Shown here: piece by piece, positions 30,254 to 34,415 of the stretch
How positions within the stretch are numbered: the first letter of the stretch is position 1
How the letters are laid out: each line of letters starts with the position of its first letter
Source: Tannerella sp.
GTDB lineage: Bacteria; Bacteroidota; Bacteroidia; Bacteroidales; Tannerellaceae
DNA: 34,415 nucleotides
Reading direction: 5' to 3'
NCBI GenBank assembly: GCA_031267935.1
Contig: JAIRYD010000146.1
Coordinates: forward strand, 1-34,415
Notes under the pieces: generated by a model
The model's input: the letters and a program-made list of their open reading frames with translations, nothing else
The model's database searches: none
What the model was told of the DNA's origin: nothing
Position numbers and translations under genes: made by a program

Positions 30254-30484
30254 TCATTGACTTGTTGCCCGGTTTATCAGTTCGCCGGACACGTATTCTT
30301 CACGTTCGTCGTGAGTTTCGAAGCGGTTCAGGTATCGCGGGAAGAAGAAGATCCGAAGTACGACGAACATGATGAACAGTTTGATCAGGATGATCGCCCA
30401 GAGCGTACGTCCCCAGTCCATCGATTTGAATCCTTCAAGATAAAACCTGAATACCCGCACCGGCCATGCCGTCCTGTTTGCCAT
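30254..30484 (-). CDS. DUF4492 small membrane protein of the cyd operon
   Basis: A 76-residue protein with one membrane span (about 25-48, TLWAIILIKLFIMFVVLRIFFF) after an amphipathic RFYLEGFKSMDWGRT segment, ending in a charged tail. This is the DUF4492 pattern found at the head of cydAB operons in Bacteroidota. By position and size it may play the part that CydX or CydS plays elsewhere, stabilising the hemes of the oxidase; that is inference. It is first gene of the unit, with a -7 box at 30598-30605. Confidence 0.85.
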   Translation of the reverse strand: MANRTAWPVRVFRFYLEGFKSMDWGRTLWAIILIKLFIMFVVLRIFFFPRYLNRFETHDEREEYVSGELINRATSQ

Positions 30485-30597
30485 ATCGTTTCCTCCAAGT
30501 TAGTTCGTGTTGCACATATATTTATTTTTCAAGGTATTGTCCGGCACAGACGGGGTATTTCGGTATCATGTCCCGTCTGCGGCGGCGCTTGATAGTG

Positions 30598-30605
30598 CAA
30601 ATGTA
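30598..30605 (-). promoter_or_regulatory. -7 box for the DUF4492-cydA-cydB operon
   Basis: Minus-strand TACATTTG matches TAnnTTTG and gives a leader of about 105 bases. The remainder of the 398-base gap 30485-30882 holds this box and the two hairpins at 30756-30860; no gene is evident there. Confidence 0.6.
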
Positions 30606-30755
30606 TAAAACAAACTCAAACTTATTGTTCGGAAAAATCCCGAAAATCAATTTTTCCCCGAAAATTAACAATATTTGCGAGTTTGTGCCTTTCTTTTGGA
30701 TTATTGCTTACAGGCGGTAAAGATAATCGTTTTTCAAACAGACTCGAATATGGTG

Positions 30756-30780
30756 AAAAAAGAACGGGCGCCGTTTTTTT
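30756..30780. terminator. Bidirectional terminator-like hairpin
   Basis: AACGG (30763-30767), loop GCG, CCGTT (30771-30775), flanked by six A on the left (30756-30761) and a seven-T run on the right (30774-30780). It could stop transcripts from either side. On the minus strand it backs up the stronger terminator at 30823-30860. Confidence 0.5.
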
Positions 30781-30822
30781 CAGTGTAATCTCCCCGTCCG
30801 TTCCGCGGTCGCCAGCCTGATG

Positions 30823-30860
30823 AAAACGGGAGAGCACGCATGTCAGGCGTCGCTCTCCCG
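30823..30860 (-). terminator. Intrinsic terminator of the C10 protease unit
   Basis: CGGGAGAGC (30827-30835) and GCTCTCCCG (30852-30860) form a perfect 9-bp stem. On the minus strand it is followed by four T. It lies 23 bases past the stop of the lipoprotein gene and ends the protease-lipoprotein unit. Confidence 0.8.
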
Positions 30861-30882
30861 TTCATCCGGCCGGATCCGGTTT

Positions 30883-31422
30883 TTACTTTTCAATGAGGAA
30901 ATGCCGCAGGGCGGATTCGCCGCTACTGTAATCGTGATCGTAATATTTGTCCCATTTCAATTCCCCGTTAAAATAGATTCTGCTAACTATAACGTGATGC
31001 TCCGTCCGATTGGCAAATTCACAGACCAGCGTATCGTGTTCCGTCCGGCTCCATTCGATAATGGTCGTCGTCCTGTCCCAGCCCGAACGATGGTCGTCCG
31101 CAAACAGACGCAACTTATACAAATCGGGGTAACAGTCATCCGGATACCTATCGTCGGATGATACGACAATACAATTGCGGGGATAGTCATCATGGCTGTT
31201 AAACCTTTTATACCCGTCGCTTTCATTGTCGTAATAATGCAGGTATATGTCGTCGGCGTTGTAGGCCGTTGCATTTGCAGGGTTCAACAGGTCGTCTCCG
31301 TTTTTGTTAACCACAGTGATATGTACAACGGTATCATAAACGGTTGAGTACATGTCCGTGTTATTTTCGCAGCCGGGAAAAAGAAGACAGGATGTCAACA
31401 TTAATATAAGGTGTTTTTTCAT
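30883..31422 (-). CDS. Unknown lipoprotein paired with a C10 protease
   Basis: A 179-residue exported protein with a short signal and lipobox-like LFPGC (lipidation expected at Cys18), followed by ENNTDMY. The mature part is rich in Asp and Tyr and looks beta-stranded (TVVHITVVNKNGDDLL, IYFNGELKWDKYYDHDY), consistent with a small beta-barrel or beta-sandwich. I do not recognise a named family. It starts 6 bases after the C10 protease stop and precedes a strong terminator, so it is the second gene of a two-gene unit. C10 proteases of Bacteroides fragilis and streptococci are often linked to small inhibitors, so an inhibitor role is plausible but unproven. Confidence 0.8.
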   Translation of the reverse strand: MKKHLILMLTSCLLFPGCENNTDMYSTVYDTVVHITVVNKNGDDLLNPANATAYNADDIYLHYYDNESDGYKRFNSHDDYPRNCIVVSSDDRYPDDCYPDLYKLRLFADDHRSGWDRTTTIIEWSRTEHDTLVCEFANRTEHHVIVSRIYFNGELKWDKYYDHDYSSGESALRHFLIEK

Positions 31423-31428
31423 GACCTG

Positions 31429-32604
31429 TCAAGAATATATGGAAACCATTTTTGTATTGTTTGAATAATTATGCCCGTTAGGAGTATGCGACATATACCA
31501 GCCATCAAACTGTCCATCCCATCCCCAATTCATGTGAAAGGTGATATATCCGGCAGTGCCATGACCTCCAAGAGCACACGGTTGATATTCACTTACACCA
31601 TCACAAACCCAGACATGTCCTTTTCCCGAACTTTCACTGGCCATTAAAATAACAGGTCTTTGTGCCACAATGTGCGCTTTAACAGACTGTGAGCTATAGG
31701 TGCCTTGAAAAGCGTTGGCATATCCAAAATAATTTGTAAATAAATTCGCTATGTTATAATTACCGTTTACACCCGTACCGTCACAGGCATAAGTTATGGG
31801 GGAAGTAGCATTGATATAAGTATGAATATTAGCTATAAGCAATTGAGTTTCGGTTGTTCCGAAAGTATTTACCATTGCAGACCAATTATAGGAAGTCGGC
31901 TTCTGATGATATTTTAATATCTGGGCAACTGCAACCGGGACGCATCCTGCTTCCGGTTTAACGAGTGAACCGTTACAAATTATACTGTTCAAAGCGCTGT
32001 TATAACCTGTACCCTGCCCCCATGTGGTTGTCAACAGCTGAAAAATTGTAAGCTCGTAGTCGGTGCAGGGCGGTTCACTCGGCTGTTCACCTCTTATTGA
32101 AATCGACGCCGGCTCAACCAGTTTATTCCACAATACTGTTATTTCATCTATTTGCGGTTCTTCATTCTCCCGCAGATACTGGACGGTTTCCCTGCACTCG
32201 TCAAGCCAAAGCTGAAGACCATACGGCATATTGTCGTAATCATCATCGAAATAACCTTCTTCAGAATAAGCCAGTACAGGTTCCATCCGGTCGTCGGCAG
32301 AAACAAGGACAAACCCGTCGTCATCATCAAAATTGATAATGTGTAAAACCGTTTCGGCGTTTTCATCCTTGTAGGGAAGAACATTTTTGATCGACTTGTC
32401 AGCAGCAAGAGACAGGGATCGTGTTTGCAGATTACTGTCCTTGCGGGGAACATTAAAGTTAAGCGCAATTTTTTGCGCCGTCGCACCCGTCACAAAGTGA
32501 ACATCACCACTTTCGGCAGGTGTATCGACCTCCGAAATCTCATTCAGGTTATTACATCCAAAAAGGAGTAACCCCGATACCAGAATAAAGATAAAACGTT
32601 TCAT
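31429..32604 (-). CDS. Streptopain-like C10 cysteine protease, lipoprotein
   Basis: A 391-residue exported papain-fold protease of family C10 (streptopain/SpeB, interpain, Bfp). The signal peptide has the lipobox LLFGC with lipidation at Cys17. A propeptide of the Spi/C10 type spans about 30-165 (NFDDDDGFVLVSADDRMEPV, then a Trp-rich end) and normally keeps the enzyme inactive. In the mature domain the catalytic Cys is Cys221 (GCVPVAVAQILKYH) and the catalytic His is His330 (GKGHVWVCDG). NWGWDGQFDGWY matches the conserved C-terminal Trp motif. It is the first gene of a unit with an adjacent lipoprotein and has a long leader of about 190 bases. Confidence 0.93.
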   Translation of the reverse strand: MKRFIFILVSGLLLFGCNNLNEISEVDTPAESGDVHFVTGATAQKIALNFNVPRKDSNLQTRSLSLAADKSIKNVLPYKDENAETVLHIINFDDDDGFVLVSADDRMEPVLAYSEEGYFDDDYDNMPYGLQLWLDECRETVQYLRENEEPQIDEITVLWNKLVEPASISIRGEQPSEPPCTDYELTIFQLLTTTWGQGTGYNSALNSIICNGSLVKPEAGCVPVAVAQILKYHQKPTSYNWSAMVNTFGTTETQLLIANIHTYINATSPITYACDGTGVNGNYNIANLFTNYFGYANAFQGTYSSQSVKAHIVAQRPVILMASESSGKGHVWVCDGVSEYQPCALGGHGTAGYITFHMNWGWDGQFDGWYMSHTPNGHNYSNNTKMVSIYS

Positions 32605-32798
32605 TTCTTTTATAATTTAAGCTATTAATCAAATAAACAGCATTATTGAACATCTGCTGGAACTTTGGCGCAAGACGCGCGGTACGTTTTTAAATAATTT
32701 CTCCTTTCCAGTAGTTAATCGGTTGTTGACTGTTTTAAATCCTTTCGCATGTATTCAAAAATGACAGCAGTAAAACATTATTCAAACTGTTGAGGTTG

Positions 32799-32831
32799 CA
32801 AATATAGCGAAAATTATTTTATGCAGGCAAA
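32799..32831 (-). promoter_or_regulatory. Promoter for the C10 protease unit (-7 and -33)
   Basis: On the minus strand the -7 box is TATATTTG (32799-32806). A -33 TTTTTTG-type element lies at 32828-32831 and beyond, with a 21-base spacer, the same as at dnaX. The transcript start would be near 32793, so the leader is about 190 bases. The leader includes an 11-codon ATG-started frame (starting MRKDLKQS) that could act as an upstream ORF. The 341-base gap 32605-32945 contains this promoter and leader and nothing else I can name. Confidence 0.65.
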
Positions 32832-32945
32832 AAACGCTCCCGATTCACCCCGTTATGTTTTTTTTGATTTTTTCGGGGGACTTCCGGAAAAACCTTACCT
32901 GCATGAGCCGGTTTCTTTTTCGAACGCCGCCTGTTCTTCCGCCGG

Positions 32946-33170
32946 TCAGTAATGAAGGGTGACGGTGATCTCCCTGTCGAAGGCCTGGGGGTAGACGCGG
33001 TAGGCGGGGAGGATGGAGCGGGCGGTGCAGCCTGTGCCGGAGGTGGCATAATCGGGGTTGAACGTGATGCTTTCCTGCTTCTGAAGCTGACAGGTGTACA
33101 GCGCTTTCGTCAGGTGCGAGGTGGAATAGGGGTAGGCGTTATAGTTGAACTCCCGATTCTTCTGAAAAAA
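32946..33170 (-). pseudogene. 3' remnant of a LacZ-type beta-galactosidase
   Basis: The minus strand keeps an open frame of 75 codons ending in TGA at 32946, with a stop directly upstream (33171-33173) and no start codon. The translation matches the end of the LacZ small-chain domain: FNYNAYPYSTSHLTKAL, then FNPDYATSGTGC and ILPAYRVYPQ, as in the Bacteroidales pattern FNxSxYSxxxLxxAxH...DYxxxGxGxxxCxP..LxxYRL. The rest of the gene is missing. It lies 69 bases from a MITE at 33240, so loss of the 5' part may be linked to insertion or deletion there. Confidence 0.75.
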
Positions 33171-33239
33171 TTATCCAATTCTTTTCCCCTAAAAGTTGCA
33201 TTTACTGATTGAACTTACCATACCGTTATTTACGAAGAG

Positions 33240-33402
33240 GGGGCTGTCTCAAAAGCACGCAGACGATGCAGACCGAACGGATTTGCGCAGATTTTTTATA
33301 AATCCAAATTAGACGAAACGCAGACTGTCAGCTAATTGACAATCTGCGTTCATCTATAAAATCTGCGTTATCTGCGTGCCAAATGACTTTCGAGACAATC
33401 CC
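33240..33402. mobile_element. 163-bp MITE with CTGTCTC-type ends
   Basis: The ends form an inverted repeat of about 16 bases, GGGGCTGTCTCAAAAG (33240-33255) against the complement of 33387-33402, with 13 matches. Inside, GCACGCAGA (33255-33263) pairs with TCTGCGTGC (33371-33379). A long, nearly perfect central hairpin is built from CGCAGACTGTCA and TGACAATCTGCG with further pairing outside. The repeated CGCAGA/TCTGCG units recall widely spread Bacteroidota repeat elements. No gene is inside. It separates the LacZ remnant from the GH2 gene. Confidence 0.7.
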
Positions 33403-33440
33403 TTCACCTGCCTATGGGTCATGGGGTTTCCCCTGCCGTT

Positions 33441-34415
33441 TCATTCCTGCGTCGAGACGGTCAGGAGGCTTTCGGGGAGGCCGGGGGCGGTAGCCCGGAG
33501 GGTGATGACGCCGCCGGTGCGGGTGGACTGGATGATAGCCAGGGCGCGGCCGAAATACGTTGTGCGGCGGTTGCCTTTGCGCGGCTCGTGATTGCGCAGG
33601 TCGCCGTTGTCCACGCCGATAAGGCGTCCTTCGCCGGCGACCTCGAATGTTACCGGCAGGTCGCTGTTTGGTACGGCGGTCCCGTTTTCGTCGAGCAGGC
33701 GGACGGTGACGTGCGTCAGGTCTTGACCATCGGCGACGGGCGACGTTTTGTCGGCTGTCAGTTCGATGCGGGCGGGTTGGCCGGCGGTTTTCAGTTCGCA
33801 GACGGCTGTTTCGACGCCGCCGTTGTATCCTTTTGCAACGATGCTGCCGGGACGCCAGGGGGCGCGCCACTGGATCGTGTTGTTGGCGTAATCGGCAAGA
33901 CGGCGGCGACCCAGGGTGACGCCGTTGACCCAAAGTTCCACCTCCTCGCAGTTCGTGATGGTCTGCACGTGCAGGATGCGTCCCCTGTACTGCGGGAATG
34001 TCCAGTGCGAGGCGATCATGGGCCATGTCCAGAGGTCTTTCCCCGGATCGATGTCGAGCGACTGGTCGACGACGGCAATGCTTACCGCGGGTTTGTCCGG
34101 GTTCCACACCGCACGGAGGAAAGCCGCGTAGGGTTTTTCAAACATGCAGACATCGAACGGAGCCGTAGGCCAGCCCATACTCGGCCATCCGCTGCTCTCG
34201 CCGAGATAGTCGACGCCCGACCAGATGAAATAGCCCGCCACAAAATTGTTGTCGGCGGTGTCGTACCACGGATTCCGTTCGCCATACTCGCGGAAAAGTT
34301 CCCTGCCCGCCCTGTAATACGGGAGAACTTCCGAGCCGTAGATGATGCGGCTGGGGAACTGCCGGTGGTCGTCCGTGAAGAACTGATCCTGATAGTTGTA
34401 GCCGACCACGTCAAG
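33441..34415 (-). CDS. Glycoside hydrolase family 2 beta-galactosidase-like enzyme (C-terminal part)
   Basis: The last 324 residues of a GH2 enzyme whose 5' end lies beyond the right edge of the window; the frame is open at the edge. The visible part begins in the end of the TIM barrel (VVGYNYQD, then GYFIWSGVDYLGE and SSGWPSMGW). It continues with a DUF4982-type domain (about 110-215, WTFPQYRGRILHVQTITNCE) and ends with an Ig-like Big/invasin domain (about 220-320, IELTADKTSPVADGQDLTHV). Such enzymes release terminal beta-galactosides or related sugars from host or plant glycans. The catalytic acid/base and nucleophile are outside the window or not identifiable. It is a different subfamily from the LacZ remnant next to it. 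Confidence 0.9.
   Translation of the reverse strand, partial: LDVVGYNYQDQFFTDDHRQFPSRIIYGSEVLPYYRAGRELFREYGERNPWYDTADNNFVAGYFIWSGVDYLGESSGWPSMGWPTAPFDVCMFEKPYAAFLRAVWNPDKPAVSIAVVDQSLDIDPGKDLWTWPMIASHWTFPQYRGRILHVQTITNCEEVELWVNGVTLGRRRLADYANNTIQWRAPWRPGSIVAKGYNGGVETAVCELKTAGQPARIELTADKTSPVADGQDLTHVTVRLLDENGTAVPNSDLPVTFEVAGEGRLIGVDNGDLRNHEPRKGNRRTTYFGRALAIIQSTRTGGVITLRATAPGLPESLLTVSTQE

Follow-up and report, generated by a model that had tools for sequence, protein, structure and literature searches.

Cysteine proteases of family C10, such as SpeB, interpain, periodontain and the Bfp and Btp enzymes, have been studied as host-degrading enzymes; how Bacteroidota restrain them is, to our knowledge, largely unknown. 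Staphostatins, which are cytoplasmic and non-lipidated, are small β proteins encoded beside papain-like protease genes, where they inhibit the C47 staphopains. Beside the C10 genes of Bacteroides lie small, mostly β proteins (Bfi1A, Bfi1B and Bfi4, as well as BtiA, BtiB and BtiZ), encoded within a few bases of the protease, co-transcribed with it, and secreted or lipidated (PMC2873492, PMC3462683); an inhibitor role was proposed for them in 2010-2012, as a proposal only and without biochemistry in those reports. The Bfi proteins are reported to be unlike the propeptide and Spi, and to be staphostatin-like (PMC2873492), which corrects a sequence-only reading of the locus described here, where the C10-linked inhibitors of Bacteroides were said to resemble the propeptide; the propeptide analogue is the streptococcal Spi only. 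The potempins of Tannerella forsythia, also small lipoproteins, are reported to be specific inhibitors of the protease encoded next to them (PMC7296668).

The window analysed here, a stretch of 34,415 nucleotides from Tannerella sp., a gut-type bacterium (contig JAIRYD010000146.1), contains a C10 gene followed by a small lipoprotein gene (Table 1), at the coordinates of the sequence-only reading, which had left their common strand unstated. The protease has 391 residues and comprises a signal peptide with a lipobox (LLFGC17, Cys17), an I69 propeptide (Inhibitor_I69, PF13734, residues 38-140; 67.5 bits against a cut-off of 25, E 1.5e-18) and a catalytic domain at about residues 195-370 (Peptidase_C10, PF01640; 92.7 bits against a curated cut-off of 26, E 4e-26). 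A sequence search finds relatives of it in the PDB, namely interpain A and SpeB. No C10 protein retrieved is closer than 35-37% identity, and several of these nearest relatives are from Flavobacteriia. Cys221, His330 and, within the MNWGW motif, Asn359 are invariant among 11 aligned C10 proteins (the window protease and ten others); the enzyme, a complete streptopain-family lipoprotein as had been claimed, should thus be active.

Table 1. Features of the C10 protease-lipoprotein locus in the window
Feature	Coordinates	Strand	Evidence
C10 (streptopain-family) cysteine protease lipoprotein gene	31429..32604	minus	Pfam, PDB relatives, invariant catalytic residues
Intergenic gap, protease stop to partner start	31423..31428	minus	Sequence; 6 bases, operon-like
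Partner lipoprotein gene	30883..31422	minus	Family and neighbourhood survey, AlphaFold2
Terminator-like hairpin 3' of the partner gene	30813..30866	minus	RNA fold z-score -5.2

The partner has 179 residues and, like the protease, a lipoprotein signal (lipobox LFPGC18, Cys18); its mature form is acidic (pI 4.8) and rich in Asp (13.7%) and Tyr (9.3%), much as its first description had it. The residues after the lipobox Cys, where a lipoprotein export signal (LES) would lie, are weak as such a signal in both proteins. Of the strong terminator described after the partner gene, the hairpin (AACGGGAGAGC..GCUCUCCCGUUUUC) is indeed strong, but its U-tract is short and weak, and a consensus terminator scan missed it because its loop is long.

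The pair has the cyd operon on one side and a GH2 gene on the other (30254-33441; GH2 at 33441). Seven close congeners lack it at this site; there, the cyd operon is flanked by a Gfo/Idh-type oxidoreductase gene and then, where the sequence suffices, by a lipoprotein gene. The two genes are AT-rich, with GC3 values of 0.39 and 0.56, where the cyd genes reach about 0.72. Because of this composition and of the absence in congeners, the pair was likely acquired horizontally. Between the C10 gene and the GH2 gene, a 62-residue stretch on the minus strand (32949-33134) resembles, by eye, the C-terminal end of a β-galactosidase small domain, and is apparently a relic distinct from that GH2 gene.

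Searched as a single sequence, the partner has no relative in Pfam, NCBIfam, PHROGs, PADLOC or the PDB, and was in this respect rightly called unrecognised. The view of it as an orphan protein is overturned by iterative profile searches, which reveal it as one member of a divergent, unnamed Bacteroidota family. Its relatives, retrieved by searching the bacterial family and then the order, are weak but consistent and align over the whole length (155-180 residues); they share the motifs GxDLL[ND]P, W..xxDT and NGxxxW, and the lipobox Cys is invariant in the aligned family alongside the GxDLL and W..xxDT motifs. Drift along signal peptides is ruled out as the source of the family, which still coheres when rebuilt from mature sequences only (E-values of about 1e-60 to 1e-11); as a positive control, HHalign between two halves of the family gives a probability of 99.9%. 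No Pfam model recurs convincingly among the members, and the window partner matches none at E up to 10. Judged by these profiles, the family spans the whole phylum Bacteroidota and is not named in the databases searched.

Its linkage to C10 genes is apparent from both sides. When named genomes were scanned with a C10 alignment (79 loci), the partner family was found directly downstream of 15 of about 30 short C10 genes (encoding 500 residues or less) in this Bacteroidota sample, and of none of the 43 long ones (Fisher p 7e-8, from ORF counts); about nine further short C10 genes are followed by another lipoprotein, in some cases perhaps one too diverged to score. The paired genes are co-directional, their order does not change, and the gaps between them are mostly 2-44 bases. 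They occur in Flavobacteriaceae, Weeksellaceae, Flammeovirgaceae, Saprospiraceae, Chitinophagaceae, Sphingobacteriaceae and Bacteroidales, the hosts found from the C10 side including Aequorivita, Empedobacter, Aquimarina, Aureivirga, Chryseobacterium, Flammeovirga and Sphingobacterium, with members of Saprospiraceae and Chitinophagaceae. Since homologous pairs thus recur in many genera, in the same order and with gaps of a few bases, the pairing is beyond chance; it is real and old, and the C10 linkage for which the sequence-only reading had proposed a neighbourhood survey holds phylum-wide. Downstream of long C10 proteases (about 750-1000 residues) we observe a second, unrelated family of lipoproteins of about 170 residues, with the pattern VYKTKxDYxxLVPV...LLDNRGI (L139, L140, L149, L151, L153, L164, L167, L182, L189, L193 and L260), whose genes often overlap the protease gene by 4 bases; the one member scanned belongs to no Pfam family.

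From the partner side, the family is present in 32 of 393 genomes of the order, and the family and order searches yield 35 loci of a main clade. A C10 gene lies immediately upstream on the same strand in 16 of these (p < 1e-37 by chance, given that a genome has one to three C10 genes), a C10 remnant adjoins the partner in six more (L049, L050, L062, L052, L053 and L094), and in 13 the partner appears solo within the flanks examined. The homologues, which would have spoken against the pairing had they lain mostly away from C10 genes, are thus linked or next to a remnant in 22 of the 35 loci, as against the 13 solo ones and a nine-member sister clade that is never C10-linked and splits from the main clade with support 100/99; in the tree, the main clade has 54 rows (34 linked, 6 remnant, 14 solo), a count that includes loci found through C10. 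Because of the solo loci and the unlinked sister clade, the partner fold also serves elsewhere. Two orphan partners without C10 within about 6 kb are under purifying selection (dN/dS 0.32), and one locus (L076) carries tandem partner copies. A 466-residue lipoprotein (L063:1447-2847) consists of three tandem copies of the domain of the unlinked sister type (FGEFD...WGDGT).

Decay affects both genes of the pair. An intact partner ORF stands beside an eroded or stop-broken C10 gene at nine loci (L049, L050, L052, L053, L067, L068, L094, L120 and L134), a number biased by how the loci were found. Several genomes from the bacterial family to which the window belongs (L049, L050, L062, L052 and L053) retain of the C10 gene only its last 40-65 residues, directly upstream of the partner, which at L062 is itself frameshifted; at L067, L068, L120 and L134, the C10 gene is near-complete with in-frame stop codons, next to an intact partner ORF. 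The reverse case, a broken partner beside an intact C10 ORF, occurs at L132 and L138 and, together with the frameshift at L062, weakens a view in which the protease is always lost before the partner. There are also short C10 genes without any partner (L119, L122 and L141, also L124 and L170); these, and the broken partners at L132 and L138, imply that the protease can in some cases do without the partner.

For comparison with the described Bacteroides proteins, orthologues of B. thetaiotaomicron BtiA (L196) and B. fragilis Bfi1A (L257) were located through exact matches to published primers: the Bfi1A, Bfp1 and Bfp2 primers all match one Bacteroides genome and the BtiA primers another, and those for BtiB, BtiZ and Bfi4 have no match in the genomes searched. 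Like the Bti and Bfi proteins, the window partner is encoded a few bases from its C10 gene and has a lipobox; those proteins, however, have 116-138 residues and are known from Bacteroides, whereas the new family is longer and spans the phylum. Bfi1A further differs in being encoded upstream of the protease, without a clear lipobox. With mature profiles, neither BtiA nor Bfi1A matches the new family (HHalign probabilities of 0.09% for BtiA-like and 1.8% for Bfi1A-like sequences), nor does the ORF adjacent to Bfp2 (0.16%); a weak likeness to BtiA in the full-length profile (E 0.016) vanished with mature sequences. The partner profile matches none of the ORFs next to C10 genes in comparable Bacteroides clusters, and none of those adjoining the short C10 genes in the sample from that genus. 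Bfi1A itself (L257:1823-2173) matches DUF3244 near threshold (E 2e-5), and look-alikes of it lie upstream of C10 genes at L254, L255, L256, L252 and L251; DUF3244 may be a C10-partner family.

Spi shares with the partner a gene adjoining a C10 protease; in sequence, the partner has no similarity to Inhibitor_I69, with an HHalign probability of 0.58% and no I69 match in Pfam, and is not propeptide-like, as had been supposed. Here, I69 is the protease's own propeptide. The partner likewise has no match to the staphostatin sequence families in Pfam and the PDB. By these sequence comparisons, the partner family is separate from Spi, BtiA and Bfi1A. The potempins, again small lipoproteins beside a secreted protease and from the same bacterial order (PMC7296668), are partners of KLIKK rather than C10 proteases and their genes precede the protease gene; the window partner has no sequence match to any PDB chain.

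The mature window partner is modelled by AlphaFold2 (from 15 sequences) as an all-β protein (pLDDT 81, pTM 0.78), as is a homologue from Aequorivita with 35% identity (pLDDT 87, pTM 0.80). Foldseek gives no significant match in the PDB for either model; a further fold comparison ranks CnaB domains of Gram-positive pilins and adhesins at the top for both (Z 5.7 and 6.0), scores that are weak and may reflect merely a common sandwich arrangement. The fold is predicted to be a CnaB/Ig-like β-sandwich. Staphostatins have a lipocalin-like β-barrel; the matches listed include neither a staphostatin-like nor a chagasin-like fold, which is no evidence against either. A natural fusion of C10 and partner does not occur among the surveyed loci.

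We consider the partner to be a membrane-tethered cognate inhibitor or controller of the C10 protease, with a probability of roughly 55%. A controller, most simply a tethered inhibitor, is favoured because of the shared lipid anchoring, the fixed gene order and the tight spacing, and because the protease has a propeptide of its own, partners occur in tandem and intact partners stand beside broken proteases. Against an inhibitor speak the weak fold match, which is not to a known inhibitor fold, the short C10 genes with no partner or a broken one, the partners standing alone in 13 of 35 loci, and the unlinked sister clade. A dedicated folding, maturation or activation factor for the zymogen at the membrane would also account for a partner that is always downstream and co-directional, and would fit the report that Bacteroides C10 proteases were not obtained soluble or active in E. 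coli, as well as the proposal, cited there, of a chaperone role for staphostatins (PMC3462683); the decayed partners at L132 and L138, each beside an intact C10 ORF whose product may or may not be active, could be counted in its favour. We nevertheless regard it as unlikely, given that the I69 propeptide is normally a folding aid already, that several intact short C10 genes do without a partner, and that orphan partners are kept under purifying selection with no C10 gene within about 6 kb.

Somewhat less probable still is a lipoprotein that serves as an anchor or adaptor, or presents substrates, and so places the protease or its substrate at the surface: both proteins are lipoproteins and folds of the predicted type are frequent among surface adhesins and pilins, but the protease has its own lipid anchor, which makes an anchor protein redundant, the window pair shows weak export-signal residues, and this reading does not readily account for orphan and tandem copies. 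The latter, together with partners beside broken proteases and the patchy, apparently mobile occurrence of the AT-rich pair, would rather suit an effector-immunity pair, with the C10 lipoprotein directed against neighbouring or sister cells and the partner as its immunity protein; we give this only about one chance in ten, as the window has neither a delivery system nor a toxin-like N-terminal domain and the protease is a plain Sec lipoprotein. That the partner is a co-inherited but functionally independent envelope lipoprotein, as its occurrence away from C10 and in the never-linked clade might suggest, is very improbable given that, in many families of the phylum, the linkage far exceeds chance and order and spacing hardly vary.

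In the tethered-inhibitor reading, the locus would be a two-gene module, in which the protease passes through Sec in the form of a lipidated zymogen, kept inactive by its N-terminal I69 propeptide; the co-expressed partner, tethered to the same membrane, would act as a cognate, lipid-anchored binder that restrains the matured protease, protecting the cell envelope and setting where the protease may act. Co-transcription, binding, inhibition and the side of the membrane faced are inferred here. An adjacent lipoprotein inhibitor beside a protease is a known kind of arrangement, for which the Tannerella potempins offer the closest functional analogy; the partner family itself is new. The broader statement, that it constitutes a class of cysteine-protease inhibitors not described before, lipid-anchored, CnaB/Ig-like in fold, distributed through the phylum and dedicated to short C10 lipoproteins, we hold more tentatively, at a little under even odds. 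The survey in any case defines a C10-partner family separate from the Bti and Bfi proteins and far wider than these, with cultured, named hosts for direct inhibition tests (Aequorivita, Empedobacter, Aquimarina, Aureivirga and Sphingobacterium). To judge from the second partner family, that of the long C10 genes, partnering may be a general trait of C10 proteases, to which unrelated proteins have been recruited repeatedly.
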